Shown here: positions 5,427 through 32,245 of the stretch, one piece after another
Layout: the number at the start of each line of letters is the position of its first letter
Position numbering within the stretch: the stretch's first letter is position 1
Source: Clostridia bacterium
GTDB taxonomy: Bacteria; Bacillota; Clostridia; Oscillospirales; Acutalibacteraceae
Assembly: GCA_017395425.1 (NCBI GenBank)
Contig: JAFPUM010000050.1
Coordinates: 1-34,912 of the forward strand
Length of the DNA stretch: 34,912 nt
Direction of reading: 5' to 3'
The notes under the pieces: model-generated
What the model was told of the DNA's origin: nothing
The model's database searches: none
What the model saw: only the letters and a program-made list of their open reading frames with translations
Position numbers and translations under genes: made by a program

Positions 5427-6974
5427 ATGAACATAAAAAAGCTCGGCGGTTCTCTTCTGGCTTTGCTGCTGATGCTGGCAGTATTGACCGGGAATCTGAC
5501 CGTGCCGGTGGAAGCAGCCGGCGGCAAGACCGGTATCGGGCTTGCCGAATGGGCTTTTCGTGCGTATAATGAGGGCTGGACCTATTCTTATGGCGGGTCT
5601 TCGGCCGGCGCGGTAGACTGTTCGGGACTGATTCGTTCATACAGCGGCAAGGGAGGAGGCGCCAAGGCACTGCTCGACGCTTCCTCCGTCAACGGTTCGG
5701 TCAGCGATATGCCGCGCATTCACGGACTTGGCTTATGGTGTGAAGGACACGCGGGCGTCTATGTGGGCAAAAACAAAGACGGTACCAATATGGCTATTGA
5801 CATGCGCAATTCCCGTGTGAATGTAGTTTATGCCGCCATGAATTCCCGTTATTACAGTCCGTGGGTCAAGTGGTTCAAGGTAAGCGGACTGTCCTATCCG
5901 ACGACCGGCTGGTACGAATTCCGGGGAAACACCTACTATTATAAGAACGGGGAATTCTGTGTGGGAGCGGTTAAGGTGGACGGTAAAACTTATGACTTCG
6001 GTAAATCCGGCGCGCTGATCGGGGAAATGGATCCCGGCACGCTGACTACCACCAGGAAGACCACCACAACCGTCACGACAACGACAACGACCACTACCAC
6101 CACCACCACTACTGCCACCGCTCCGCCGGAAATTACCACGACTACCGAAGAACCTACCGCTGCGGTTACGACAGCGGAGATTACCACCACGCAAAGCACC
6201 ACAACGGCTGCGCCGACGGAACAGACCACCACTTCCGCCAAACAGACCACCACATCGCAAACCACGGTCAAGCGTACCACATCTACCCGCCAATCTACTA
6301 CGGAAAAATCTGCTGCTGCCAAATCAACTAGGAAAAAAACGACCACCGGCAAATCCTCCGCAACCGCCAAGGCGTCCCGCGATACGACCTCTACGACATC
6401 GTCCACCAAGCGGACGACTGTTACCACTGCCACTGCATCCCCTGATACCTATATTTCTTATGAAGGCGGCATGAAGGGAGAAGGCGTATCCCGCATTCAG
6501 CAGCGGCTTTACGCGCTGGGGTATTATGATCAGGATATCACGGATTACTACGGATCTTTTACCCGGGATGCGGTGAAGGCGTTCCAGAAAGCGATCGGTG
6601 TGCTGCCCACCGGGATTGCCGATGAAGCCACCCAGCGGCGGCTTTTTAGCGATGACGCGCCGGCATATGACGAAGCGCTTTCACTGATGAACGATGCCGA
6701 CTATCAGATGGACGAGGCGGAGGAGACAGAAACACCGTCAGAAGAAGAGCTGGAAATGTCCGTACCGGTGATTGCCGATTCCGAAGGAATCGCGTCGCTG
6801 AGTATGACTGCCAATCCTTATGGCTTTACCCGCACCTACGGCGAATCGGGGCCGCTTCAGACGATGGGTGTGTTTTCCTATCAGTCTCCGTCTGTGGTAT
6901 TCTACCGCGACGGGGAAAGTTACAGCGTGACCGAGGATGTGATGGAAAGCCTCCGGAACTGCGTATTTTTGTAA
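5427..6974 (+). CDS. Secreted NlpC/P60 peptidoglycan hydrolase with wall-binding modules
   Basis: 515 residues. A signal peptide (about 1-30, ending PVEA-A) is followed by an NlpC/P60 cysteine peptidase domain (about 33-155) with the triad Cys65 (AVDCSGL), His108 (EGHAGVYVG) and probably Asp125. These enzymes cleave peptide stems of peptidoglycan. Next comes one choline-binding-like aromatic repeat (about 161-200, GWYEFRGNTYYYKNG), a very Thr-rich linker (about 205-340, including 13 Thr in a row), a PG_binding_1 domain (about 345-408) and an acidic tail with a C-terminal domain I do not recognise. The Shine-Dalgarno is weak (CGGGG). It probably belongs to a transcript starting at the GH31 gene. 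Confidence 0.88.
   Translation: MNIKKLGGSLLALLLMLAVLTGNLTVPVEAAGGKTGIGLAEWAFRAYNEGWTYSYGGSSAGAVDCSGLIRSYSGKGGGAKALLDASSVNGSVSDMPRIHGLGLWCEGHAGVYVGKNKDGTNMAIDMRNSRVNVVYAAMNSRYYSPWVKWFKVSGLSYPTTGWYEFRGNTYYYKNGEFCVGAVKVDGKTYDFGKSGALIGEMDPGTLTTTRKTTTTVTTTTTTTTTTTTTATAPPEITTTTEEPTAAVTTAEITTTQSTTTAAPTEQTTTSAKQTTTSQTTVKRTTSTRQSTTEKSAAAKSTRKKTTTGKSSATAKASRDTTSTTSSTKRTTVTTATASPDTYISYEGGMKGEGVSRIQQRLYALGYYDQDITDYYGSFTRDAVKAFQKAIGVLPTGIADEATQRRLFSDDAPAYDEALSLMNDADYQMDEAEETETPSEEELEMSVPVIADSEGIASLSMTANPYGFTRTYGESGPLQTMGVFSYQSPSVVFYRDGESYSVTEDVMESLRNCVFL
6040..6440 (+). repeat. Thr-rich low-complexity coding tract
   Basis: About 130 codons dominated by ACN (Thr) with Lys, Ser and Ala. The Thr codons are mixed (ACC, ACA, ACG, ACT), so this is not a simple microsatellite. 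It encodes the flexible linker between catalytic and peptidoglycan-binding parts of the NlpC/P60 protein; such linkers are often glycosylated in wall proteins, which is inference here. Confidence 0.75.
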
Positions 6975-6992: not shown

Positions 6993-7910
6993 TTGTCGTC
7001 AACAGAGAATTATTCGCTGTCCCGCGACAGCGATGAAGATTACCTCAGTCCGCGGAATCTTGACATACTCCGGCGGCTGCGGCTGATCGATGATACGTTT
7101 TTTGCCGCTTGTTTTGATAACGATCCGGAACTGACGGAGTTTGTTCTGCGGATTCTGATCGGCAGGGACGATCTTCATGTCACGGAAGCCAGGACACAAT
7201 ACACTATAAAAAATATCAACGGTCACTCCGCGGTGCTGGACGCGCTTGCCACTGATGCACAAGGGCATATTTACAATATTGAGGTGCAGCGTGCCAGTCG
7301 GGGCGCCGTACCGGAGCGTGCGCGGTATAACGGAAGTCTGATTGACAGCCGTTTCTTTCCAAAAGGGGAAGATTACACCAGGCTGCCCCAGACGTATGTG
7401 ATATTTCTCACAGAACATGATGTGATCGGCGACAATTTAGGCATTTATCACATTGAAAGGACAGTGGCGGAAACCGGCAAGCCATTCGGGGACGGTTCAC
7501 ATATCATTTATGCCAACGCCTCCTGTTGCGATGATTCGGCACTGGGACAGCTGATGCACGATTTTCTGTGTTCAGACCCCACAGCAATGTACTATTCGGC
7601 GTTGTCCCGGAAAACAGGGCTTTATAAGGAAGAAAACGAGGGGGTAAGACATATGTGTCAGATCATTGAAGATGCCATCAGGGAAGAGAGAGGAATGATA
7701 TTCCGAAAAGGACTGGAGCAAGGTCTCGAGCAGGGTCTTGAGCAAGGTCTTGAGCAGGGTCGTCAGGAAGAACGGGCCAAGGCCGCCAGGTCAGCGGAGC
7801 GCAATGCGGGACGGATGCTGGCAGACGGTCTTTCGGTTGAGCGGATTGTACAGTACACGGGTCTGCCGTTGGAAACCGTGCGCAGGCTCGCCGGACTTTC
7901 CAACGAATGA
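6993..7910 (+). CDS. Rpn family PD-(D/E)XK nuclease / putative transposase (TIGR01784-like)
   Basis: 305 residues, TTG start with an ideal AAAGGAGGTG 7 bases upstream. The N-terminal PD-(D/E)XK_2 nuclease domain (about 20-200) shows DDTFFAACFDNDPE, Asp83 (AVLDALATDA) and Glu97-Val-Gln99 (IYNIEVQR), the D...ExQ form of the active site usual in this family. Rpn proteins are DNases that stimulate RecA-independent recombination in E. coli; they are called transposases only by association. A GLEQ tetrapeptide repeat (residues 240-256) precedes a basic C-terminal helix pair. It lies 18 bases after the NlpC/P60 gene. No inverted terminal repeats are visible around it. Confidence 0.82.
   Translation: MSSTENYSLSRDSDEDYLSPRNLDILRRLRLIDDTFFAACFDNDPELTEFVLRILIGRDDLHVTEARTQYTIKNINGHSAVLDALATDAQGHIYNIEVQRASRGAVPERARYNGSLIDSRFFPKGEDYTRLPQTYVIFLTEHDVIGDNLGIYHIERTVAETGKPFGDGSHIIYANASCCDDSALGQLMHDFLCSDPTAMYYSALSRKTGLYKEENEGVRHMCQIIEDAIREERGMIFRKGLEQGLEQGLEQGLEQGRQEERAKAARSAERNAGRMLADGLSVERIVQYTGLPLETVRRLAGLSNE
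7710..7760 (+). repeat. 12-base tandem repeat encoding (GLEQ)n
   Basis: Four near-identical 12-base units encode G-L-E-Q four times, followed by a degenerate GRQEE. Unit length is a multiple of three, so changes in copy number keep the frame. A related tract is present in the second nuclease gene at 14198-14295. Confidence 0.85.
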
Positions 7911-13183: not shown

Positions 13184-13214
13184 CAATTGTAATATATTTT
13201 TACAAATGTATGTG

Positions 13215-13261
13215 AAAAGGACATTTCCACGGACAGCTCGTTTGGTGGAAATGTCCTTTTT
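13215..13261 (+). terminator. Terminator of the secDF operon
   Basis: A perfect 16-bp stem (13215-13230 with 13245-13260), 14-base loop, ending in TTTTT. Confidence 0.88.
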
Positions 13262-13296
13262 ATCGCAAATTGGGTTGTACGCAGTTTTCCTATATC

Positions 13297-13325
13297 TTGA
13301 CATCGAGCAAGAACGAGGATATAAT
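13297..13325 (+). promoter_or_regulatory. Promoter of the second Rpn-type nuclease (perfect consensus)
   Basis: TTGACA (13297-13302), 17 bases, TATAAT (13320-13325). The predicted start near 13332 coincides with the GGGAGG ribosome binding site (13332-13337), so the leader would be only about 18 bases. Confidence 0.75.
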
Positions 13326-13349
13326 AAAAACGGGAGGGAAGAAAAGAAT

Positions 13350-14453
13350 ATGCAGATGGACACATCACTGGCGGGTTATCTGCGCGCAGGTGAAGGGCAG
13401 GATCCCTGCGATGCGCTGGCAAAGGAAATTCTGAGCAACCGGGAGATTCTGGCGTGGATATTGAAGGGCGTCGTAGAAGAATTCAAGGATTGCACCATAC
13501 GCGATATCGCCGATAAATATATTGAGAGTGATTTGGAGATTGCCGCGACGGCGGTGGATGCCGATATGAATCACCGTCGAAGAACGGATTCTATCACAGG
13601 GATGAATACAGAGGATAAAACCGTTGGAGAGGGAACCATATATTATGACATTCGTTTTTCCGCCTTGGCGCCCGGGGACGGCAGACAAATCAAGCTGATC
13701 ATCAACGTGGAAGCGCAGAATGCGTATCGTCCGGGTTATCCGCTGGTCAAGCGCGCGTTGTATTATGCCGCCAGAATGATTTCCGCGCAGAACGGAACGG
13801 AATTTGCGGCACCGCACTATGAAAACCTCAAAAAAGTATATTCTATCTGGATTTGTTCACAGCCGCCTCAGGTGAGACAGCAGGCCATCACGCGCTATAC
13901 GGTTCGGGAAGAAACGGTTTTGGGGCATTCCACGGAGAAAAAAGAAAATTACGATCTTTTGTCGGTGATTTTTATCAATCTGAGCAATCGTTTTGATGAG
14001 CATTCCGGAAATATGATTGATCTGCTGAACACAGCACTCACCGGCGAATTAAGTGCCAACCAAAAAATCAAAGTACTGCATGAGGACTATGGAATTCATA
14101 TGACCAAAAAATTGGAAGGAGATGTATCGCTCATGTGTAATATCAGTGAAGGATACCGCATCAGAGGGATGGAACTGGGACGTGCGGAAGGATTTCGTCA
14201 GGGAATGGAGCAGGGAATGGAGCAGGGTATCCAGCAGGGAATGGAGCAGGGTATCCAGCAGGGAATGGAGCAGGGTATCCAGCAGGGAATGCAAAAAGGA
14301 TTAAACGAAGGCATTCTGAAAGGTATGCTGTCTGCCATCAGAAATATCATGGAAAGTATGAATATCTCTGCCGATCAGGCAATGAACCTGTTGAAAATCC
14401 CGGAGAACGACCGACCCCGGTACTTGAAATTGCTGGAAGAAACCCCTGCATAA
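13350..14453 (+). CDS. Rpn-type PD-(D/E)XK nuclease family protein
   Basis: 367 residues. The nuclease core (about 60-215) contains Asp100 (IYYDIRFSA) and Glu121-Ala-Gln123 (LIINVEAQ), followed by YPLVKRALYYAARMISAQ and the KKVYSIWIC strand, a pattern typical of clostridial proteins annotated as PD-(D/E)XK nuclease family transposases. A tract of GMEQ/GIQQ tetrapeptides occupies about residues 284-317 and a helical tail follows. It belongs to a different branch from the nuclease at 6993 but has the same overall design. GGGAGG precedes ATG 13350. It is a single-gene unit between secDF and pyrH, with no terminal inverted repeats. Biological role is unknown; Rpn homologues in E. coli are recombination-promoting DNases. 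Confidence 0.8.
   Translation: MQMDTSLAGYLRAGEGQDPCDALAKEILSNREILAWILKGVVEEFKDCTIRDIADKYIESDLEIAATAVDADMNHRRRTDSITGMNTEDKTVGEGTIYYDIRFSALAPGDGRQIKLIINVEAQNAYRPGYPLVKRALYYAARMISAQNGTEFAAPHYENLKKVYSIWICSQPPQVRQQAITRYTVREETVLGHSTEKKENYDLLSVIFINLSNRFDEHSGNMIDLLNTALTGELSANQKIKVLHEDYGIHMTKKLEGDVSLMCNISEGYRIRGMELGRAEGFRQGMEQGMEQGIQQGMEQGIQQGMEQGIQQGMQKGLNEGILKGMLSAIRNIMESMNISADQAMNLLKIPENDRPRYLKLLEETPA
14198..14295 (+). repeat. 24-base tandem repeat encoding GMEQGIQQ
   Basis: A 24-base unit (GGAATGGAGCAG then GGTATCCAGCAG) is repeated three times almost exactly, after an extra 12-base GMEQ unit and before a degenerate GMQKG. All copies stay in frame. The near-identity of the copies suggests recent expansion by slippage or recombination. 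Confidence 0.88.
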
Positions 14454-22610: not shown

Positions 22611-24575
22611 ATGCACACAGCCAGAAAAAATGACCGTGGTAGCAGAACAACCATTTTGTCTGAGGGAATCAAGAGAGCGACAGCGCTGGTATTGATTCTT
22701 TTCTTGTTTACGGGCATTGTGCCGCAGACAACCGTCCGGGCGAAGAGCATCTCAACGAATGAAAGCATTGTGTTCCGTTATTTGATAAACGAAATGGGAT
22801 TCAATACGGCAGCCGCTTGTGGTGTGCTTGCCAATATGGAATATGAATCCAACTTCCGTCCGACGATGGTGGGGGATAAGGGGACAAGCTACGGCATCTG
22901 CCAGTGGCATTACAGCCGCCGCACCAATCTCATGATTTATTGCATGGGGCACGGCTATGATTATACTTCGCTGGATGGACAGCTCCGTTTTTTGGAGTAT
23001 GAACTGAAAACGAACAGCAAATACAGAAAATATGTCTATAATAAGTTGATGTCGGTTCCCAATACCGCGCAGGGCGCGTATGACGCCGGTTTTGCCTGGT
23101 GCTATTATTTTGAGATTCCGAGTAATTATCAGAGTGTGTCTTATTCGAGAGCCAGACTTGCCATGAATACCTACTGGCCCGCTTATAAGAACGGCGGAAC
23201 CTCGGTCGCGCCGGTGAGCATGGATCCGCGGGATTACAAGGTGTCCTTCACCCGTACACTCAAGTATGTGAGCGGCGGCAATATGAACGGCACCGACGTG
23301 AAGTATATGCAGGTATGTCTGCGTCATCTGGGCTATACGGTAGATGTGGACGGTTATTACGGATCCGGCACCGCCGCGGTGGTCAAGCAGTTCCAGAAGG
23401 ACAGCGGTCTGACGGCAGACGGCATCTGCGGTTCCGGCACATGGAACGCGATGGTCAAGGCGGTCACGGTGGACGGCGGTTCGCTGAGCATCGTGGAGCA
23501 GCCCGTTGACTGCGCTGTGCAGTATGGCGAGAAAGTCAGCTTTACGCTGAAAGCCGACGGTGAGGGTCTTACCTATCAATGGCAGTACAGCGATGACGGC
23601 GGCAAGACGTGGAAGCGCAGTACCATCACCAAGGCTACATACTCCACCACGCTTTCCAGGAGCAATGCCAACCGCATGGTGCGCTGCATCGTCACCGACA
23701 AATACAAGAATCAGGAAACGTCCAAGGCTGCTTCCATGAAGCTCGGCAAGGTTCTGACCATTGTAGAGCAGCCGGAGGACTGCATCCGGAAGCTGGGCAG
23801 TGAAATGGTCTTCACGGTCAAGGCGGAAGGAGAGGGACTGACCTATCAATGGCAGCTCAGCGACAACAACGGCAAGACATGGCGCAACAGCAGCGCAAAA
23901 ACCGCTACTTACGCGGTAAATCTCACCGAGGGCAGCATTAACCGTATGGTGCGCTGTGTGGTAAAGGACAGCGCGGGTAAGACAGTGACTTCCAAGGCAG
24001 CCACCATGAAGCTGCTGGAAGCGGAAATTACACAGCAGCCTGTCAACTGTGCCGTAGAAATCGGCGCAAAGGCGACGTTCCGCGTAGGTGCTGCGGGTAA
24101 CGGTCTGCGTTATCAGTGGCAGCTGAGTGACGACAACGGCAAGACATGGCGTCTCAGCAGCGTGACAACTTCCGAATACGCGGTGACGCTGACCGATGAA
24201 AACGACGGTCGCTGCGTGCGCTGCATTGTGTACGACAAAAACGGCGGCAAGCTGATTTCTCAGACCGCTACGATGACCGCGATTGGTGTTAAGCCCATTT
24301 CTCTGGGCATTACCAAGCAGCCCGCGAATGCTTCTGCCGCAGAGGGTAAGCAGATTGCTTTTGAAATCAAGGCAACCGGTAAGAAGCTGAAATATCAGTG
24401 GCAGCTGAGTGATGACAACGGCAAGACGTGGCGTAACAGCAGCACTACCACCGCTGTTTATTCCACTGTGATGACCCCTGACAAAAACGGACGCAAGCTG
24501 CGGTGCATTATCACCGACGGCAGCACCGGCAAGAGCATTACCTCCAAGACGGCAACGATGAAACTCAGCGTATAA
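22611..24575 (+). CDS. Secreted phage-tail-type lysozyme with peptidoglycan-binding domain and four Ig-like repeats
   Basis: 654 residues. A long signal peptide (about 1-44, ending VRA-KS) precedes a domain (about 50-195) resembling phage tail lysozyme (PF18013): LINEMGFNTAAACGVLANME, then YESNFRP with Glu79 the probable catalytic acid, and TSYGICQW. A PG_binding_1 domain follows (about 215-285: DVKYMQVCLRHLGY, GYYGSGTAAVVKQFQ). Residues 292-654 are four Ig-like repeats of about 90 residues with the core YQWQLSDDNGKTWR and RCIVTD. The first three carry an additional Cys in QPVDC/QPEDC/QPVNC, absent from the fourth. It would act in the cell wall. AAAGGATG precedes the ATG by about 12 bases. 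Confidence 0.88.
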   Translation: MHTARKNDRGSRTTILSEGIKRATALVLILFLFTGIVPQTTVRAKSISTNESIVFRYLINEMGFNTAAACGVLANMEYESNFRPTMVGDKGTSYGICQWHYSRRTNLMIYCMGHGYDYTSLDGQLRFLEYELKTNSKYRKYVYNKLMSVPNTAQGAYDAGFAWCYYFEIPSNYQSVSYSRARLAMNTYWPAYKNGGTSVAPVSMDPRDYKVSFTRTLKYVSGGNMNGTDVKYMQVCLRHLGYTVDVDGYYGSGTAAVVKQFQKDSGLTADGICGSGTWNAMVKAVTVDGGSLSIVEQPVDCAVQYGEKVSFTLKADGEGLTYQWQYSDDGGKTWKRSTITKATYSTTLSRSNANRMVRCIVTDKYKNQETSKAASMKLGKVLTIVEQPEDCIRKLGSEMVFTVKAEGEGLTYQWQLSDNNGKTWRNSSAKTATYAVNLTEGSINRMVRCVVKDSAGKTVTSKAATMKLLEAEITQQPVNCAVEIGAKATFRVGAAGNGLRYQWQLSDDNGKTWRLSSVTTSEYAVTLTDENDGRCVRCIVYDKNGGKLISQTATMTAIGVKPISLGITKQPANASAAEGKQIAFEIKATGKKLKYQWQLSDDNGKTWRNSSTTTAVYSTVMTPDKNGRKLRCIITDGSTGKSITSKTATMKLSV

Positions 24576-24615
24576 GTGTGGGATTCCGCACACGGAGCGG
24601 CAGTTATTGCGCAAA

Positions 24616-24665
24616 AACAACCAGCGGCGTGACGGTTCATAATGAACGTTACGCCGCTGGTTGTT
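24616..24665. terminator. Bidirectional terminator after the lysozyme gene
   Basis: Perfect 15-bp stem (24616-24630 with 24651-24665) containing a smaller GTTCA/TGAAC hairpin. The convergent membrane-protein gene ends at 24696 on the other side. Confidence 0.78.
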
Positions 24666-24695
24666 ATACATTATGCGGGAGCGGAGCGGAACATT

Positions 24696-25520
24696 TCAGG
24701 AATTGCCGAATACAATCTGTTCCGCTTCCGCCACTTTATCAATGAGCTTGGTGTGGGGGAGATAGTAGAACGTATAGCGGTGTCCCTTTTGGAGTTCGCT
24801 GCTGCTGCCGCTGTACCGGAGAGAGAGAGATTCACCGCTGGTGCCTTTGATGATAATTTCCGTTCGTCCCGGTCCCGCCAGAACCCCCATACTGGGAGAA
24901 GCAGCGGAGACGGTGCCTGTGACGGCTGTCAATTCGGGGTCGCTGACCGAAATGTCGCGTATGGAGGGAATGGCCTTCATGATAAACAGTACTGCCAGCA
25001 GGGCAAAGAGTCCTGCCGCTACCCATGCGAACCGACGGCGTATTTTGTGATGTACAACCGAAAAGAGGAAAATCACCGTGGCAACGGTGAAACTCAGAAG
25101 AGCAATGGCGCCCAGATACAGTACATAAACCCCGAGCGGATCGAAGAGAATGCCGAATCCCAGTCCGATCAGAATCATGCTGCACAGCGCCGCTGCCGAT
25201 GTGAGCGCAATAGGGCGAACGGTCGCACGACCGAGCGGGATCAAGCCGTTGTCAGCGAGGGGATTGCCCAGTGCGTCCACAACCTGTATCCGTGTAAAAA
25301 AGATAAAATAGCGCAGAATGAGCGCTGCTGTCGCCAGAGATAGCAGCAATCCGGCGGCGAGAAAGAAAAATCCGACGCGGCTGTCAAGCGTCAGCCACGA
25401 CGGCATGATGGCGCCGTATCGTCGGCTGACACCGATAATGCCCAGAAGAACCGTTCCCGCCAATGTGGCGGCTGTGACCGGCACCCCTTTTGCTATTTTT
25501 TGCTGCATATTTTGCTGCAT
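24696..25520 (-). CDS. Hypothetical membrane protein
   Basis: 274 residues, family not recognised. About five hydrophobic segments (near 14-31, 48-72, 103-125, 128-152 and 160-180) are followed by a soluble C-terminal domain (about 185-274) rich in Ser, Gly and beta-type sequence (ITVSD-like strands, EIIIKGTSGESLSLRY, RYTFYYLPHTK). The start at 25520 has AAGGA 9 bases upstream. The first codons are duplicated (MQQN MQQK) by a 12-base tandem repeat. It sits between two Ig-repeat genes but shares no repeat with them. Confidence 0.7.
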   Translation of the reverse strand: MQQNMQQKIAKGVPVTAATLAGTVLLGIIGVSRRYGAIMPSWLTLDSRVGFFFLAAGLLLSLATAALILRYFIFFTRIQVVDALGNPLADNGLIPLGRATVRPIALTSAAALCSMILIGLGFGILFDPLGVYVLYLGAIALLSFTVATVIFLFSVVHHKIRRRFAWVAAGLFALLAVLFIMKAIPSIRDISVSDPELTAVTGTVSAASPSMGVLAGPGRTEIIIKGTSGESLSLRYSGSSSELQKGHRYTFYYLPHTKLIDKVAEAEQIVFGNS

Positions 25521-25521
25521 A
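25498..25521. repeat. 12-base tandem duplication at the start of the membrane-protein gene
   Basis: TTTTGCTGCATA occurs twice in tandem (25498-25509 and 25510-25521), placing two ATG codons 12 bases apart in frame on the minus strand. The outer one (25520) has the better ribosome binding distance. Confidence 0.8.
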
Positions 25522-25592
25522 TTTCAAAATCCTTCCTGATGATGGTGTCCTGATAATCATGTCATCATGGTATACCAACCACATTTTACCAT

Positions 25593-25621
25593 ATATTAAC
25601 ACACTATTAACAAATTGTCAA
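25593..25621 (-). promoter_or_regulatory. Promoter of the membrane-protein gene
   Basis: Minus strand: TTGACA (25616-25621), 17-base spacer, TAATAT (25593-25598). A 10-base palindrome TGGTATACCA (25568-25577) lies just downstream in the leader and could be an operator. Confidence 0.65.
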
Positions 25622-25699
25622 TGGTGTTTTTTGTGATGGATTCCCTATGCCATTTCATGCCGCAAATCGCGGTTATCCCACAGTTTCTGCAAATTCCAC

Positions 25700-25728
25700 T
25701 TGCAATTGAAGGAATTTTGTGATAATAT
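25700..25728 (+). promoter_or_regulatory. Promoter of the unknown gene and CAP gene
   Basis: TTGCAA (25700-25705), 17-base spacer, TAATAT (25723-25728). No other promoter is obvious before the CAP gene, so both may be read from it. Confidence 0.6.
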
Positions 25729-25787
25729 GAAAGACAGATTTGATTTTGCCTGAATGACTTTATGATAGAAGGAGCGAAGTAAAACGG

Positions 25788-26540
25788 ATGAACGGTGAAT
25801 TGATGAACCTGTTTCAGCTTACGCTGGCAGCCAGACAGTCCCTTCGCACGGAGAAAGTCACTTTGCCGCCCTCAGACAGTACATTGGTGGAGGGATATGA
25901 CTTTCAGTTTGCGCAGCGGGGTGAGAAGGACGCGCTGCCCGCTGTACGGACGGAGCGTGTGGCGGATTGGCTTGAACTGCTCCGGACGCGGGGCGCAAGG
26001 GATCTGAAACTGATTGTGGAGGATCAGATTGCCGATTATGAAGCGCTGCGGGGACTTAACGGGTTGCCCTGCTGTCTGATCTGTTTCTATGACGACGGTG
26101 CCACGGTCTGGCAGAAGCGCTGGCTGTATAATGTGGTGAGCAAACGATGCCATGTGCATATGGAAGAATTTGTGATTCCCCAGCCTCCGCAGGAAAAGCC
26201 GATGTTCCGCGACGTCTCGCAGGATATGGTAATGCTGCTGGAGCGGCTGCGGGCATTGGCGCAGAAGCTGGAACTGAGCCGTTTTGCCTTTGCGTTCCGT
26301 GCGGCACAAAACAAACTGCAAGCCAATTTTGTGCCTGCCGATGGTATGATGTCACCGGCGCACCGCCGTCTGTTGGCGGCAGCGACAGAAGCCTATGTGT
26401 TTGACGGTGAAGTGCCGTGGACCGAAGAGGGCAAAGCAGCTGCGGAGCAAAAGGGATTGCTGGAGGAATACCAATTGCTTACGGGAGAACTCTATCGTGG
26501 CATTGCGCTGTCCTATATGTATGCCGCCAACGAATGGTAA
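25788..26540 (+). CDS. Hypothetical soluble protein
   Basis: 250 residues, not recognised. It has no signal peptide or membrane segment and is probably cytoplasmic. Visible features are a charged N-terminal half, a hydrophobic strand LPCCLICFYDDGATVWQKRWLY with a Cys pair, a likely helical stretch (about 145-180, VMLLERLRALAQKLELSRFAFAF) and an acidic C-terminus. GAAGGAG lies about 13 bases before the ATG; a second in-frame ATG lies at 25803. It stops 45 bases before the CAP gene on the same strand, so a shared transcript is likely, but no functional link is evident. Confidence 0.7.
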   Translation: MNGELMNLFQLTLAARQSLRTEKVTLPPSDSTLVEGYDFQFAQRGEKDALPAVRTERVADWLELLRTRGARDLKLIVEDQIADYEALRGLNGLPCCLICFYDDGATVWQKRWLYNVVSKRCHVHMEEFVIPQPPQEKPMFRDVSQDMVMLLERLRALAQKLELSRFAFAFRAAQNKLQANFVPADGMMSPAHRRLLAAATEAYVFDGEVPWTEEGKAAAEQKGLLEEYQLLTGELYRGIALSYMYAANEW

Positions 26541-26585
26541 TCATCTTTTTACCTGAGATTATCAAAATATAAGGAGGTTTTTTCA

Positions 26586-28220
26586 TTGAAAAAAGGTTGT
26601 AAAAGAGCATGGTCCCTGTCGGTACTGCTGCTGACGCTGGCATTTGTGTTCACGCTGCCGGCACAGACGGCGGGGGTCATACAGGGACAAACCGTGTATG
26701 CTGCTGCCACCTACGGAAGCAAACAGATGGAAGAATATGCGCGTGAAGTGGCGATACTGGTCAACCGTGAGCGCCGGGCGAAAGGGCTCAGTCCGCTGAA
26801 ACTGTCCGACAAGCTGAGCGAAGTGGCCATTCTGCGCGCCAAAGAGACCGAAACGCTCTTTTCTCATACCCGTCCCAACGGCACAAGCTGCTTTACCGCG
26901 ATGGACGAGGCAGAAATCGACTATTACTACGCAGGTGAAAACATCGCCTATGGGCAGAAGACGCCCGAAGCGGTGATGAACGCGTGGATGAATTCGGAGG
27001 GACACCGCAACAATATTCTCAGCGAGACGCCCAATTATCTCGGCGTAGGCGTGACCTATAACAATAACCGTTTCTATTGGGTGCAGCTTTTTGCTTCATC
27101 CGGCAATCTGAACGGAAAGGTTCCCGCCGATCAGGAAACCGTCACCCGCATTACACAGCACCCCGCCAATTATACCGGCAGGGAGGGGGATACGGCGACT
27201 TTTACAGTCAAGGCAGACGGCGACGGATTGACCTATCAGTGGCAGCTTTCGGACGATCAGGGCAAGACATGGCGTACAAGCCTGACCAAATCGTCCACCT
27301 ATACCGCCAAGCTTAGTGACAAGAATGACGGCCGCTATTTGTGCTGCATTGTAACCGACGCATATGGCAACCGTCTGATCTCCAATTCCGCCGTGATGAA
27401 GATTGCCAAGCTGACCATTACGCACCAACCCAGCGATGCCTCAGCCGGTCTGGGAGCGCAGGTGAATTTTGTGGTCAAAGCAACCGGCGAGAGCCTGTTG
27501 TATCAGTGGCAGCTCAGCGACAACAAGGGCGCTACATGGCGCAACAGCGCGATTCGCACATCGGCGTATTACACAACACTTACCGCTAAGCATAACGGGC
27601 GGTATGTGCGTTGCGTCATCACTGACAAATACGGCAACTCTGCCATATCTGATCAAGCGGAAATGCGCGTTTCTCCCGTGAAGATTACCGGACAGCCTGT
27701 GGATGTCACGGCTTCGCTCGGCGATCAGGTGAAGTTTACGGTCAAAGCCAAGGGCGACGGGCTGACCTACCAATGGCAGCTCAGCGATGACAGCGGCGCG
27801 ACGTGGCGCAGCAGTTCCACCAAGACCGCGATATATACCACGACCCTCAGTGAAAAGAACAACGGACGCTATGTGCGGTGCGTGGTAACGGATGCATACG
27901 GCAATGAGACCGTATCCGGTTCGGCTGCCATGCGGGGACGCAAGGCAAGATTTATTACCCAGCCCGCCTCTGTGACGGCGGAAATGGGTGACCGGGTGAG
28001 TTTCTCCTTCATTGCGGAAGGGGACGGATTGACCTATGAGTGGCAGCTCAGTGATGATCATGGAACGACCTGGCGTAAAAGCTCCACCAAGACGGCAACG
28101 TATAGCACTACCCTCAGTGAGAAGAACAACGGTCGTTCGCTGCGGTGCCTGATTACCGATAAGTACGGCAATCAGGTGGTTTCCCAGACGGTTACCATGA
28201 ATGCCGTAACCGAAGAGTAA
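26586..28220 (+). CDS. Secreted CAP-domain protein with four Ig-like repeats
   Basis: 544 residues from a TTG start with AAGGAGG 8 bases upstream. A signal peptide (about 1-40, ending VYAA-AT) leads to a CAP/SCP domain (about 46-172) with the expected pocket residues His94 (FSHTRPNG), Glu118 (AGENIAYG), Glu138 and His140 (WMNSEGHRNNIL). Bacterial CAP proteins are extracellular; their activity is unsettled. Four Ig-like repeats follow (188-274, 276-362, 365-451, 454-541), each with YQWQLSD (YEWQLSD in the last), TWR and a Cys in the RCxxTD strand. The repeats match those of the lysozyme and LRR proteins nearby. There is no LPxTG sorting signal; retention in the wall would need another mechanism. 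Confidence 0.9.
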   Translation: MKKGCKRAWSLSVLLLTLAFVFTLPAQTAGVIQGQTVYAAATYGSKQMEEYAREVAILVNRERRAKGLSPLKLSDKLSEVAILRAKETETLFSHTRPNGTSCFTAMDEAEIDYYYAGENIAYGQKTPEAVMNAWMNSEGHRNNILSETPNYLGVGVTYNNNRFYWVQLFASSGNLNGKVPADQETVTRITQHPANYTGREGDTATFTVKADGDGLTYQWQLSDDQGKTWRTSLTKSSTYTAKLSDKNDGRYLCCIVTDAYGNRLISNSAVMKIAKLTITHQPSDASAGLGAQVNFVVKATGESLLYQWQLSDNKGATWRNSAIRTSAYYTTLTAKHNGRYVRCVITDKYGNSAISDQAEMRVSPVKITGQPVDVTASLGDQVKFTVKAKGDGLTYQWQLSDDSGATWRSSSTKTAIYTTTLSEKNNGRYVRCVVTDAYGNETVSGSAAMRGRKARFITQPASVTAEMGDRVSFSFIAEGDGLTYEWQLSDDHGTTWRKSSTKTATYSTTLSEKNNGRSLRCLITDKYGNQVVSQTVTMNAVTEE

Positions 28221-28251
28221 CGGTTACGATTTGATAAATAATCCATCGCAA

Positions 28252-28305
28252 AACAGCGCACACGCTGTCTGAATGAAAATCAGGCAATGTGTGCGCTGTT
28301 ATTTT
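28252..28305. terminator. Bidirectional terminator between the CAP and LRR genes
   Basis: Perfect 12-bp stem (28252-28263 with 28289-28300) with an inner GTCTGA/TCAGGC stem, followed by ATTTTG. The LRR gene stops at 28328 from the other side. A separate 7-bp hairpin (28206-28212 with 28221-28227) overlaps the CAP stop codon. Confidence 0.78.
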
Positions 28306-28327
28306 GTGCTTGTTTTGCTGAGAGCTA

Positions 28328-31300
28328 CTATGCGGCTTTCATGGTCACGACTTTGGAAATAAGGGTGTTGCCGTATTTGTCCGTGACCAGACAGCGGAGG
28401 CTTCTGCCGTTGTTTTTGGCAGAGAGCGTAGTAGAATAGCTGGCGGTTTTCACGGAACTGTTGCGCCATGTGCTGCCGTCGTCAGAGAGCTGCCATTGAT
28501 AGGTCAGGGTGCCGGGACCCTGTGCCGTCACTTGGAAGGATACCCGTTCTCCCATTCCCGCTTTGACGCTGACGGGCTGCTTGGTAATCTGAAGCGAAGA
28601 AATCTTCATGTAAGCCGCGTTGGATTTGACGGAATGACCGTAAGCGTCGGATACGATGCAGCGGAGATAGCGGGTATTGTTGGTATCGGAAAGAGTGGTG
28701 CAATAGGTATCGGTGCGGTTGCTGCTGTCCCGCCACGAGGCGCCCTTGTTGTCGGAGAGCTGCCACTGATAGCGGAGACTGCTGCCGGTCGCCTTTATGC
28801 GGAAGGTGACAAGATCCCCCTTGAGGGCAGTCACGCTCGCGGGCTGGGCGGTAATGACGGGTACGGTGGAGGTGCTTGTCATACAGGCGGCGTTGGAAGC
28901 GATGGAATTGCCGTATTTATCGGATACAACGCAGCGCACAAAGCGACCGTCATTTTTGGAGGAAATGGTGGTGGAATAAGTGTCGGTCTGATTGCTGCTG
29001 TTGCGCCAGTTGGTGCCCTGATCATCACTCAGCTGCCACTGATAGGTGATGCCGGGACCGCTGGCGCCGATCCGGAAGGTGACCGCTTCGCCTTGCGCCG
29101 CCTGTACATCGACCGGCTGGCGGCTGATGGTGAGGGAAGAAACCTTCATGTAAACGGCGTTGGTCTTGGCAACATGATTATGGTTGGTGTTGGCGATGTA
29201 GCAGCGGACATAACGTCCGCTGTTGTTTTTGGTGAGAACCGTTTCGTAAATAGTGGAAGTGCAGGAGACATTGTTCCATGTTACACCCTTGTCGTCGCTG
29301 ATCTGCCATTGATAAGAATTGCCTCCTTCGGCGGTGACGCGGAAAGTCACGCTGTCGCCTGCCAGCCCCGTGACACTCTGGGGCTGTGAGGTGATTTTCA
29401 CTCTGTTGAGGTAGATAGATGCCGTCTTTGAAATAATAGTCGAACCCCCGGCGTCCTTGATGACGCACCGCATCATGCGATTTTTCATGGCTTCGGTCAT
29501 GGTATCGGTGAAAATAGACGTTGTCTGCTCCGTATCGACCCATGTTTTGCCGCTGTCATCGCTGAACTGCCACAGGTAAGTCAGATTTTTGCCGGTGGCG
29601 GTCACGCTCATGGAGAAGGTATTGCCAGCTATGCGTGTCACGCTTTGCGGTTGCTGCTGTATGGTGGGAGGATTGCACTTGAGGCGCACGGTCTGGGAAG
29701 TAGCGGTATGACCCTGACTGTCCGAGACCACGCAGCGCAGATATTGACCGACATTCTGTTCGGTCAGCGTGAGGGTGCAGCTGCTGCGGATGAACTGATT
29801 AGACAGATCTTCATTCACCACGCAGTCCGCGGGTACGCTCTGCCAGCTTTTTTTGTCAGAACTGAGCTGCCACTGATAGGTCAGATTGCCATAGGCGTTG
29901 GCGCTGCACTGATAGGTCAATGGCTGTCCGAAATCGCCGGTTTTGCTGGAGGAAGGCTGCGTGCTGATGGCAAATCCGGTGAGCAGATTTATCGTCCGTG
30001 AAATGACACGGTTGCCGTATTGGTCAGCAACAATGCAGCGAAGATAGATGGGGTTGTAATTGCTGTGGCGTAATTCATACCGACAGAAACTGTCTGTCGA
30101 GTCGATGTTTGTCCAATAGTCTCCCTCGTCCCCCGCATATTGCCCCTTCTGCCACTGATAGGTCAGACCTTCGCCGACCGCCTCAATGGAAAATTTGACA
30201 AGACTGCCATTGGAACCGATTCCGTCATAGGGCTGGGTGATGATGCGGGGCGGTTCGATGATTCTGACGGGGAACGTGGCGGTCAGATTCTCATAGGAGA
30301 CAGTGACGGTCTGCGTGCCGGTGGTATCAAAAGCCATCGGCGTATAGGCGAAACCGTCGATTAACTGACGGGTGGCACCGTTGGCATAATGCAGGAGCAC
30401 CATCAGCCCGTCGGGTTCAAACGGTTGACCGACAACATAGACGGTTTTGCAGGGCAAACTGGTGATCGAAAGAGAAACAGGCGGTTCGTCCGGTATGGAT
30501 ACCGTCTCGGCAAATGTGACCGAAGCGTTCAGAAGCGCATCATTGCCTTCCCCGATATGGTAGCAGAGCGTATTCCACTCGTCGGCACTGCCCATATAAT
30601 GCACTTGTTTCAGGGATGTACAGTTGACAAAGGCGTACTCACCGATTTCCGTCACACCCCGACCGATGGTAATTTCCCGGAGTGAGGTGCAGTCGGCAAA
30701 GGTGAAGCTCCCCACGCGGGGGACGCGGTTGGGAATTACAAAGGATTCCAGTTTGGCGCAGCCCTGCGCGAAACCGTCCGTCAGGGAAGCAAGAGGTGCG
30801 TTGACGTCCAGTGTGAGCGAGGACAGATTGGCATTGGGGCTGAAGGTGGTCTGAATCTCCGTCACGGTAGCGGGTAGAATGACCGATTCCAGCGCCGTAC
30901 ATTCTGTAAAGGCGCTTTTCTGAATGGTGCGGAGAGAATTGCCGAGATGAACCGTCCGAAGTGCCGTGCAGCCCCGGAAGGCATATTGTTCCAGCGTTTC
31001 GAGCCGGTTGCCGAAGGTGACTTCTGTCAAAGCAGCGCAGCCTGCAAACATATCCGAAGCGTAAGTCAGGCGGGAATCCGGGTCAAAAGTGACGGTGCGG
31101 AGGGAAGCGTTATTGGAGAAAGCCAGAGAACCAATGGTTTCGACCGACGCGGGAATATGCAGTGTGGTCATATTGCAATATTTAAAAGCACCTTTTCCGA
31201 TGGTTTTCAGACCGCTGCCGAAGGTGACGCTTTTCAGACCGCCCATGGTGACATAGTCTCTGCCGATATAGCCCGCCTGCGGAAAGGCATATTCACCGAT

Positions 31301-32200
31301 GAATTCCAGCGAATCGGGGAACGTGACGTTCTCCAGCGGACAGGCATAAAAGGCATAGTTGCCAATGGAGCGGAGATGCTGCCCGAACGTAAACGATGTC
31401 AGTTTATTGCAGGAAGAAAACGCGCTGTTGCCGATGGATTCCACACCGCCGGGCAGGACAACCGTCTGCAATGCACTGTCCTGTGAAAACAGGCTGTCGG
31501 GAATTCGGGTAATCGGAGAACCGCTCGCAAAGGTGAAGGACTTCAGGCTGGAGCATTTGAAAAAAGCGCCGCTGCCCAGTGTCTCCACCGTAGCGGGAAG
31601 GGTGAACGAGGTAAAGGCACATTCGCCGAAGCCCTCCTGATCGATGATTTTGAGGCACGTCTGGCTGCCGAAGGTCACATTGGTGGCGTTGCAGCCGGAA
31701 AACGCCCATTTTCCGATGCGTTCTACCGAATTGGGAATGGTGATTTTGGCGAGATTTACGCAATCGCCGAAGGCAACGTCATCGATATTCTGCACACGGC
31801 TGCCCAGTTTCAGTGTGGTGAGGGAACCGCAATTCAGGAAGGCGTTCTTGCCGATGACGGTCACGGAATCGGGAATCGTGACAGATGTCACGGCGCTGCC
31901 CCGGAAGGCGTTATCACAGATAGACGTAATCTGCCCGTAAAAGCGGATATCCGTGAGTTTGCCGCCATACCTCCCATAATAATAGCTGCTGCCGGATTGA
32001 ATCTGCCACGGGGCGGAGGTCATGTCACCGCTGCCGCTGATGTTCAGTACGCCGGTGTCGGGGTTGATGCTCCAGTGGAGATTGTCGCCGCATTCGCCGC
32101 TGGTGGGATAATTGGCAGCCTGTACCGTTTTCCCGCGGCAGCAGAAGAGTATTGCCATGACACAGACGATGATCATGGTCAGGTTCTTTTGTTTCATCAT
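28328..32200 (-). CDS. Giant secreted BspA-type leucine-rich-repeat protein with Big_3 and seven Ig-like repeats
   Basis: 1290 residues. A signal peptide (about 1-28, ending VQA-AN) is followed by the BspA-type N-terminus (LHWSINPDTGVLNISGSGDM) and about 20 LRR_5 repeats (roughly 85-565) of the form FxxCxxLxxVxIPxSVxxIGxxAF. A group-3 bacterial Ig domain (about 575-648) and seven Ig-like repeats (about 651-1290) complete it. The last five repeats are closest to those in the CAP and lysozyme proteins. BspA-like proteins bind host or matrix proteins and other cells; here the role is inferred as surface adhesion. The start at 32200 is preferred because AAAGGAGTG ends 6 bases before it; an ATG at 32218 lies upstream of that site. 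No LPxTG motif is present. Confidence 0.9.
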   Translation of the reverse strand: MMKQKNLTMIIVCVMAILFCCRGKTVQAANYPTSGECGDNLHWSINPDTGVLNISGSGDMTSAPWQIQSGSSYYYGRYGGKLTDIRFYGQITSICDNAFRGSAVTSVTIPDSVTVIGKNAFLNCGSLTTLKLGSRVQNIDDVAFGDCVNLAKITIPNSVERIGKWAFSGCNATNVTFGSQTCLKIIDQEGFGECAFTSFTLPATVETLGSGAFFKCSSLKSFTFASGSPITRIPDSLFSQDSALQTVVLPGGVESIGNSAFSSCNKLTSFTFGQHLRSIGNYAFYACPLENVTFPDSLEFIGEYAFPQAGYIGRDYVTMGGLKSVTFGSGLKTIGKGAFKYCNMTTLHIPASVETIGSLAFSNNASLRTVTFDPDSRLTYASDMFAGCAALTEVTFGNRLETLEQYAFRGCTALRTVHLGNSLRTIQKSAFTECTALESVILPATVTEIQTTFSPNANLSSLTLDVNAPLASLTDGFAQGCAKLESFVIPNRVPRVGSFTFADCTSLREITIGRGVTEIGEYAFVNCTSLKQVHYMGSADEWNTLCYHIGEGNDALLNASVTFAETVSIPDEPPVSLSITSLPCKTVYVVGQPFEPDGLMVLLHYANGATRQLIDGFAYTPMAFDTTGTQTVTVSYENLTATFPVRIIEPPRIITQPYDGIGSNGSLVKFSIEAVGEGLTYQWQKGQYAGDEGDYWTNIDSTDSFCRYELRHSNYNPIYLRCIVADQYGNRVISRTINLLTGFAISTQPSSSKTGDFGQPLTYQCSANAYGNLTYQWQLSSDKKSWQSVPADCVVNEDLSNQFIRSSCTLTLTEQNVGQYLRCVVSDSQGHTATSQTVRLKCNPPTIQQQPQSVTRIAGNTFSMSVTATGKNLTYLWQFSDDSGKTWVDTEQTTSIFTDTMTEAMKNRMMRCVIKDAGGSTIISKTASIYLNRVKITSQPQSVTGLAGDSVTFRVTAEGGNSYQWQISDDKGVTWNNVSCTSTIYETVLTKNNSGRYVRCYIANTNHNHVAKTNAVYMKVSSLTISRQPVDVQAAQGEAVTFRIGASGPGITYQWQLSDDQGTNWRNSSNQTDTYSTTISSKNDGRFVRCVVSDKYGNSIASNAACMTSTSTVPVITAQPASVTALKGDLVTFRIKATGSSLRYQWQLSDNKGASWRDSSNRTDTYCTTLSDTNNTRYLRCIVSDAYGHSVKSNAAYMKISSLQITKQPVSVKAGMGERVSFQVTAQGPGTLTYQWQLSDDGSTWRNSSVKTASYSTTLSAKNNGRSLRCLVTDKYGNTLISKVVTMKAA

Positions 32201-32245
32201 GATAGACACTCCTTTCATGGTGCGAATTGTTTGGCTTACAGGACT

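Follow-up and report, generated by a model that had tools for sequence, protein, structure and literature searches.

Why should secreted proteins with unrelated heads, encoded within 10 kb of one another, end in the same repeated domain? The question is raised by a stretch of 34,912 nucleotides from a Clostridia bacterium of the Acutalibacteraceae (assembly GCA_017395425.1, contig JAFPUM010000050.1, positions 1 to 34,912; the whole stretch is called the window below). In the window, a lysozyme, a CAP protein and a BspA-type leucine-rich repeat (LRR) protein carry 4, 4 and 7 copies of one immunoglobulin (Ig)-like module at their C-termini. An earlier interpretation of the window letters alone, referred to here as the sequence-only reading, had counted the same 15 copies in three secreted proteins, and our analysis confirms them. 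It took the array for a wall- or partner-binding tail that had been moved between heads in a local surface-protein locus. We reach a different answer: the Ig array is probably an exchangeable stalk of a large family of secreted proteins in the genus. The genes and domains concerned are as follows.

22611..24575, plus strand: secreted lysozyme of 654 amino acids with four C-terminal Ig modules (open reading frame (ORF); N-terminal hydrophobic segment by eye).
22758..23174, plus strand: Phage_lysozyme2 head (PF18013; 104 bits, cut-off 28.2).
23286..23453, plus strand: PG_binding_1 domain of the lysozyme (PF01471; 62.3 bits, cut-off 23).
23490..24569, plus strand: Ig modules of the lysozyme, by profile and alignment (lys1 23490-23750, lys2 23760-24020, lys3 24027-24284, lys4 24309-24569).
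26586..28220, plus strand: secreted CAP protein of 544 amino acids with a TTG start and four C-terminal Ig modules (ORF and Pfam).
26757..27092, plus strand: CAP head (PF00188, YkwD type; 73.9 bits, cut-off 21.1); TIGR02909 gives 112.5 bits, under that model's cut-off of 171.
27150..28205, plus strand: Ig modules of the CAP protein, by profile and alignment (cap1 27150-27413, cap2 27417-27680, cap3 27684-27935, cap4 27954-28205).
28328..32218, minus strand: secreted BspA-type LRR protein of 1296 amino acids with a Big_3 domain and seven C-terminal Ig modules (ORF and Pfam).
30566..31966, minus strand: LRR_5 region (PF13306; 344 bits), limits approximate, estimated from the protein sequence.
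30266..30454, minus strand: Big_3 domain (PF07523, by Pfam), between the LRR region and the Ig array.
28334..30244, minus strand: Ig modules of the LRR protein, by profile and alignment (lrr1 29978-30244, lrr2 29669-29968, lrr3 29399-29662, lrr4 29132-29395, lrr5 28868-29128, lrr6 28592-28855, lrr7 28334-28588).

A signal-peptide-like N-terminal segment is seen by eye in all three proteins. When the arrays are split at the ..QP motif, the 15 modules measure 86-102 residues each. Their mean pairwise identity is 43.0% within proteins and 43.9% between proteins, and the most similar pair, cap4 and lrr7 (69%), crosses genes. A profile made from the 15 scores each of them at 84-133 bits, a range that is partly circular because the same modules built the profile. 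At the DNA level the repeats of different genes are 63-80% alike, so that the modules of the window look like old copies. In Pfam, PKD (PF00801) and I-set (PF07679) pass the gathering cut-off for all three proteins and Ig_3 (PF13927) for the CAP and LRR proteins, the lysozyme staying below (26.2 vs 30); these scores are whole-protein sums over several modules. PKD_4, C2-set_2 or BNR/Asp-box models pass on some of the three. The sequence relatives in the PDB are 9ncf_S ('Immunoglobulin-like domain protein') and 9c2d_S ('Tail protein'), and then Robo1, titin, LRIG1 and contactin. From its kind of name, 9ncf is presumably of phage origin. PHROG 3995 (tail protein) is matched with E down to 1.5e-47, and the CAP protein is 28.0-30.5% identical to its phage relatives in the 15 listed of 171 records. 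The module is called an I-set-like Ig domain because of the general Pfam models, the PDB relatives and PHROG 3995, taken together; its fold and strand positions would follow by homology, and the strand names used below are presumed by analogy with the Ig fold. The sequence-only reading had named two outcomes that would undo its case, a single well-studied Pfam Ig family with an unrelated role, and repeats no closer to one another than to random Ig domains. Only general Ig, PKD and Asp-box models match, and the repeats resemble one another more than they do any other Ig domain encountered. A phage origin was also considered and rejected: phage Ig proteins are the nearest outsiders, yet only three distant loci lie in viral contigs, and there is no sign of recent transfer.

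The module motif S-D-D-x-G-x-T-W fits the Asp-box consensus, S-x-D-x-G-x-T-W (PMC2716378). In this lineage the Asp-box sits at the presumed C-C' hairpin. Counting only modules above a score cut, the strict form S-x-D-x-G-x-[TSN]-W is present in 65 of 83 distinct modules of the window's assembly (G000), in 102 of 133 of its nearest genomes (G001 and G007), in 44 of 71 of RUG342 and RUG14881, and in 12 of 18 from two further genera within the order. None of the 154 modules of two other members of the genus, G006 and G013, has it, and one has a loose match. Thus, the pattern YQWQLSDD-x-G-x-TWR given in the sequence-only reading is typical of this lineage but is not general, and even in the window lrr1 and lrr2 are degenerate and lack the Asp-box. 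The cysteine presumed to lie in strand F is found in 100% of the 83 G000 modules and the presumed B-strand position is mostly valine or isoleucine (V75/I16), so the B- and F-strand cysteine pair of a canonical I-set domain is not found; 60 of the 83 have a single cysteine. Six presumed-exposed positions are near-invariant within the clade (Q32, S34, D36, W41, R62 and R65). Five of the six have another commonest residue in G006 and G013; more generally, where one clade has a fixed residue, the other mostly has a different one. The module set A1 comprised 34 of the 52 non-redundant modules, all from G000; a second set, A2 (58 of the 59 listed tail pairs), served for the PDB sequence search only.

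The family extends far beyond the window. In G000, 87 module matches are obtained at E 1e-8 and 89 at 1e-5, and they lie in 24 ORFs on 15 contigs, with at least 10 kinds of head. The gene number is approximate since two of the 24 ORFs have no more than one weak and divergent module and contig ends truncate several. The commonest head is LRR_5 of the BspA type (8 ORFs), followed by C-type lectins (2). One ORF each has a lysozyme, CAP, CHAP, NlpC/P60 with choline-binding repeats, transglutaminase, a Big_3 array, PG_binding_1, a zinc ribbon with a transmembrane-like segment, a cohesin and a dockerin; one combines LRR_5, transglutaminase and Big_2, and three have no recognised head, two of them being fragments. 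The claim of one tail family on unrelated heads is supported. That mainly wall-directed heads would be found was not borne out: lysozyme, CHAP, NlpC/P60 and PG_binding_1 make up 4 ORFs together, against 8 for LRR_5. The order of the three genes is conserved in G001 and G007, where lysozyme and CAP share a strand and an LRR-like gene converges on them (the LRR head was identified by eye in G007 and is cut by a contig end in G001). A local locus is nevertheless not supported, and a local island is rejected, as the modules are spread over 15 contigs.

Module matches occur in all 18 genomes of the genus, in 1 of 19 from other genera of the family, in 4 of 23 from other families of the order, and in 11 of 298 further genomes drawn evenly from the phylum; Ig counts outside G000 are lower bounds because the profile was built from G000 only. 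The best-matching named records are metagenome-assembled genomes of uncultured Clostridia, Clostridiales and Ruminococcaceae and some RUG genomes, the latter presumably from the rumen, and weaker ones extend to other phyla. The Pfam scan was made on all 24 module ORFs of G000, on 19 proteins of G006 and one of G013 (these two genomes have 42 complete module ORFs, those counted for 3' ends below), on 6 proteins of RUG342 and RUG14881, 4 from other genera, and 9 of 12 from G017. An array consists of 1-22 tandem modules, the maximum being in L102. Three large proteins (L025:226-6912, L102:6662-13501 and L120:1022-7807) have 8-9 Ig modules on the N-terminal side; the first continues with choline-binding repeats and NlpC/P60, and the other two with repeats that look similar. 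A GDSL lipase lies between Ig modules in two G006 proteins. Contig C2 of G000 encodes a dockerin protein that includes a divergent Ig domain (L030:774-1568), directly followed by a cohesin protein with an Ig tail (L030:1-876); pairs in L107 and L112 resemble this one, judged by shared C-terminal sequence only. A cellulosome was considered here and dropped, since the genome yields no second dockerin match and the one next to this cohesin protein is too little.

The evidence that carries most weight comes from three sister species, G003, G016 and G017. Pfam finds 71, 47 and 65 Big_3 matches in them, respectively, and 0-6 in the other 15 genomes of the genus. Conversely, Ig matches number 7, 4 and 6 in these three and 39-149 in 11 others. 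Fourteen of the 18 genomes are thus rich in one tail family and poor in the other. The heads are related across this divide. The lysozyme heads of G003, G016 and G017 are 50-54% identical to the Ig-tailed ones and end with one Big_3-type domain, recognised from the sequence and a profile of our own. With repeats masked, reciprocal best hits link 6 pairs between G000 or G007 (Asp-box Ig) and Big_3 proteins, and 8 pairs between G006 or G013 (a second Ig type) and Big_3 proteins, at 31-60% identity over 132-805 aligned columns; the search was limited to proteins in the examined stretches, so that paralogs elsewhere may be missed. The array follows the head on both sides of the comparison in the lysozyme, CHAP, PG_binding_1, LRR and lectin pairs. 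In addition, the span of the array on a head tends to rise with that on its partner in the other clade (rho 0.63-0.90, 5-8 pairs, permutation p 0.04-0.05), which suggests a constraint on stalk length; a second span measure, the mean log difference, gives p 0.015, 0.07 and 0.13, and the pairs are not independent. Some CAP paralogs, in G000 and in other genomes, carry threonine-rich stretches.

Where the arrays stand in their proteins was surveyed at 140 complete 3' ends of ORFs with Ig or Big_3 arrays, in the examined stretches of ten assemblies. ORFs that lack a 3' end were omitted, as were two from G000 truncated by the contig; some of those included are cut at the 5' end, and the CAMJHU01 and CAMHEZ01 loci were counted as G001 and G007 on matching coordinates. 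The array lies within 5 amino acids of the stop in 119 of the 140 (Ig, 97/115; Big_3, 22/25), and in 92 the stop comes exactly one residue past the profile end. Among the 21 exceptions, 11 have at least 166 amino acids after the array, 5 have 26-70, and 5 are narrowly over the line (8-9 in all). The long tails include choline-binding repeats with NlpC/P60, C39 peptidase, amidase_3 and, in the Big_3 species, CAP: where a catalytic domain is C-terminal, the array precedes it. As a control, 3 of 8 Big_2 proteins in G000 end 6-10 amino acids after the match and 5 run on for 131-438, so that Ig and Big_3 arrays stop flush with the C-terminus more often (84-88%). A sorting signal specific to the module was rejected, because flush ends also occur with Big_3 and with some Big_2; this rejection does not extend to a role of the end position. 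The terminal modules of different proteins have 64% mean identity, against 50% between internal ones, and they cluster on the tree (10 changes against 16.6-16.7 with shuffled labels, 0 of 500 shuffles). That they form a single clade is rejected; they are not one clade, and most forks are unsupported. In other members of the genus, lysozymes with a readable end (L195, L217-L220, L223-L226 and L228) finish with -VG, or with -LG in one case, and the linker that follows the module has 4-30 residues. This ending belongs to the lysozymes, since most of the remaining module proteins in G006 and G013 have different ends (for example -TIK, -TVK, -KIG). Two Ig-array proteins from different families of the order (L019:1134-2309 and L231:6015-7595) have a short cysteine-containing tail of the KYH...C type.

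The C-terminal LPxTG-type motif that defines sortase-anchored surface proteins was found in none of the 140 3'-complete ORFs and in none of the 22 module ORFs with a complete 3' end in G000, LP.T[GAN] being the sole motif searched; the absence of this anchor from the window proteins, as previously claimed, is borne out. Three sortase matches above the cut-off lie in the G000 genome. Several module proteins have attachment elements of another kind, namely PG_binding_1 (P0001, L031), 14 Choline_bind_3 stretches (L025:226-6912), one SLH domain (L117:5252-7519) and a transmembrane-like segment (L027:6863-7798). For the CAP and LRR proteins of the window, the Pfam scan revealed no known anchor of another kind. 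The L027 protein is a zinc-ribbon protein with two Ig modules at its end, and with its transmembrane-like segment the array may be presented from the membrane.

Arrays also differ in length between close relatives. The window lysozyme has 4 modules and its orthologs in G001 and G007 have 3. The heads in the window and in G001 are 93% identical, and the difference is exactly one unit of 89 residues, the alignment being broken within the conserved hairpin. Misassembly of one or the other draft is a possible source of this difference. The lysozyme part is matched in 16 of the 18 genomes of the genus; G004 is matched over the PG-binding part only, and G009 gives no match. In the CAP protein, the first half of cap4 (27954-28205) differs strongly from the G001 ortholog (L216:8886-10541), and most of the remaining protein is nearly identical, which looks like a patch introduced by gene conversion.

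Taken together, the module family, its spread over the genome, the position of the arrays, the head-by-head exchange with Big_3 and the one-module difference in the lysozyme can be read directly from the sequences. From them we infer the mechanical role, and likewise any way in which the CAP and LRR proteins may be retained on the cell. An I-set-like domain strung 1-22 times, usually C-terminal to the head, would give that head an extended arm of adjustable length. The arrays would grow and shrink, probably by unequal recombination, and would be interchangeable, homologous heads of sister species carrying Big_3 arrays instead; exposed faces may add weak, multivalent contacts. An extended arm is the common denominator of the three unlike elements found on related heads, Ig arrays, Big_3 arrays and threonine-rich stretches. 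Big_3 has been listed as a stalk domain, and close to half of the fibrillar-adhesin-like proteins in the same publication had no known anchor (PMC8286594). Big_3 arrays also occupy the same C-terminal position as Ig arrays.

Several observations weigh against the stalk. The best conserved module is the terminal one, which is not required of a plain spacer, although this likeness could also come from recent copying of gene 3' ends. Flush ends exceed the Big_2 control, so the end position may matter, and the near-invariant, presumably exposed positions leave room for binding. Phage proteins with Ig-like domains confer epithelial binding (PMC13370021). The exchange itself is less clean than the counts imply. 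The CAP pair is not a like-for-like swap, because the Big_3 array is N-terminal to CAP in the Big_3 species, and the LRR pairing is weaker since LRR heads are repetitive. G008, G009, G011 and G015 are poor in both tail families (G009 has 1 Ig match and 0 Big_3), with threonine-rich tails on some of their CAP paralogs, and over the 18 genomes the rank correlation between Ig and Big_3 counts is weak (rho -0.40, p 0.10). In a SecD tree G003, G016 and G017 form one supported clade beside G000, G007 and G009 (G001, a fragment only, was left out), so that the exchange is probably one history. A profile from G000 alone may, moreover, overlook more divergent modules in the Big_3 species. Some binding role for the array, of whatever kind, is therefore a real if minority prospect.

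Three such roles were weighed. The array could be a retention tail that holds secreted heads non-covalently on the cell wall, as WxL domains do. LPxT[GAN] is absent from all 140 ORFs although the genome has sortase matches, the array is at the exact C-terminus in most proteins and more often so than Big_2, its terminal module is the best conserved, and the CAP and LRR proteins have no other known anchor in Pfam. However, the same array sits on proteins with attachment elements of their own and is replaced by Big_3 in sister species, and wall binding must be reconciled with both. Moreover, five of the six presumed-exposed positions change in G006 and G013, and flush ends with Big_3 and some Big_2 give no module-specific signal. 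For the wall- or partner-binding tail of the sequence-only reading no positive evidence was obtained; specific wall binding is unsupported, and we regard a wall tail as unlikely. The modules could instead bind host mucus or epithelial glycans weakly, with tandem copies providing avidity, in the manner of the Ig-like domains of gut phages. This is rather less probable still. The closest solved and profile relatives outside bacteria are phage proteins (9ncf_S, 9c2d_S, PHROG 3995), Ig-like phage proteins displayed on another phage confer epithelial binding (PMC13370021), and two of the heads are C-type lectins. Yet the identity to phage proteins, 28.0-30.5% in the rows listed, carries no information on a ligand, and homologous heads in sister species manage without the Ig domain.

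Contact from tail to tail could also join all heads into one surface coat through the exposed Asp-box hairpin. In Ig-like folds the Asp-box lies exposed on the surface and often helps to form contacts between domains (PMC2716378), most genomes are dominated by one tail family, and the membrane-anchored protein of L027 also ends with two modules. One-family dominance is equally expected from recombination between repeats, however, and the Asp-box is missing in G006 and G013, which makes this coat a very unlikely one. A wider conjecture is that each species builds many of its secreted surface proteins with a single kind of swappable tail, its 'currency' (Asp-box Ig, a second Ig type or Big_3), and that one lineage has switched currency in a large number of head families. 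If tail-tail contacts also decided which proteins share a coat, such a switch would alter coat compatibility between species. We consider this improbable. The exchangeable stalk accordingly remains our preferred reading. Stalk domains are usually studied protein by protein. The genus offers a natural exchange experiment, with two unrelated repeat domains on related heads, in several proteins at once and with partly matching array spans, and whether the array is a spacer or a binder becomes directly testable by swapping arrays from one homolog to another. A further lesson is that neighbouring genes can have a repeat tail in common without forming a local system or sharing a ligand.

Elsewhere in the window, a further wall-directed protein (5427-6974) has NlpC/P60 just under the cut-off, a long threonine-rich stretch, PG_binding_1 and no Ig modules. 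Two proteins (6993-7910 and 13206-14453) have glutamine-glycine repeats of the MEQGIQQG type near the C-terminus and may resemble Rpn/PD-(D/E)XK family proteins.

Among known systems, surface proteins of the BspA type, in which LRRs are followed by Ig-like domains, provide the commonest head here. The difference is that the present tail family is common to non-LRR proteins and is exchanged between species. The Ig-like domains of tailed phages (PHROG 3995; 9ncf, 9c2d) have the same I-set-like sequence, QP start, YQW core and tandem copies. They differ in their low identity (28-31% in the rows listed), in the lack of the Asp-box segment from the four 9ncf modules compared, and in that the present arrays are on bacterial secreted proteins. 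An Asp-box within an Ig-like domain is known from chitobiase and sulfite oxidase, as a single domain there and in tandem arrays of up to 22 here (PMC2716378). WxL and other non-covalent wall-binding domains (PMC5817068) are likewise C-terminal domains on many secreted proteins of a monoderm, but none matched the modules in Pfam, and wall attachment here is hypothetical. A further parallel is with fibrillar-adhesin-like proteins (PMC8286594, PMC9210967), which have an N-terminal head, tandem beta-sandwich domains towards the C-terminus and often no recognisable anchor, and whose listed stalk domain Big_3 sits on the homologous proteins of the sister species. Tandem stalk domains, known or plausible, are present (1-22 Ig modules, and Big_3 on homologous heads). 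As for an adhesive head, LRR and C-type lectin are plausible, and lysozyme, CAP and CHAP are not adhesive domains. In contrast to fibrillar-adhesin-like proteins, the present family has many heads of enzymatic or cell-wall type (lysozyme, CHAP, CAP, GDSL lipase, transglutaminase), no single curated Pfam stalk family corresponds to the Ig module, and the anchors are candidate elements only. Domain shuffling of adhesins as such has been published (PMC10952558), and a limited search of open-access literature, by titles and abstract openings, found no genus-wide tail exchange of this kind. Thus, modular Ig-like stalks are already known, and what is new, as far as searched, is an Asp-box Ig array that serves as a lineage-wide tail and is replaced by Big_3 in a sister lineage.

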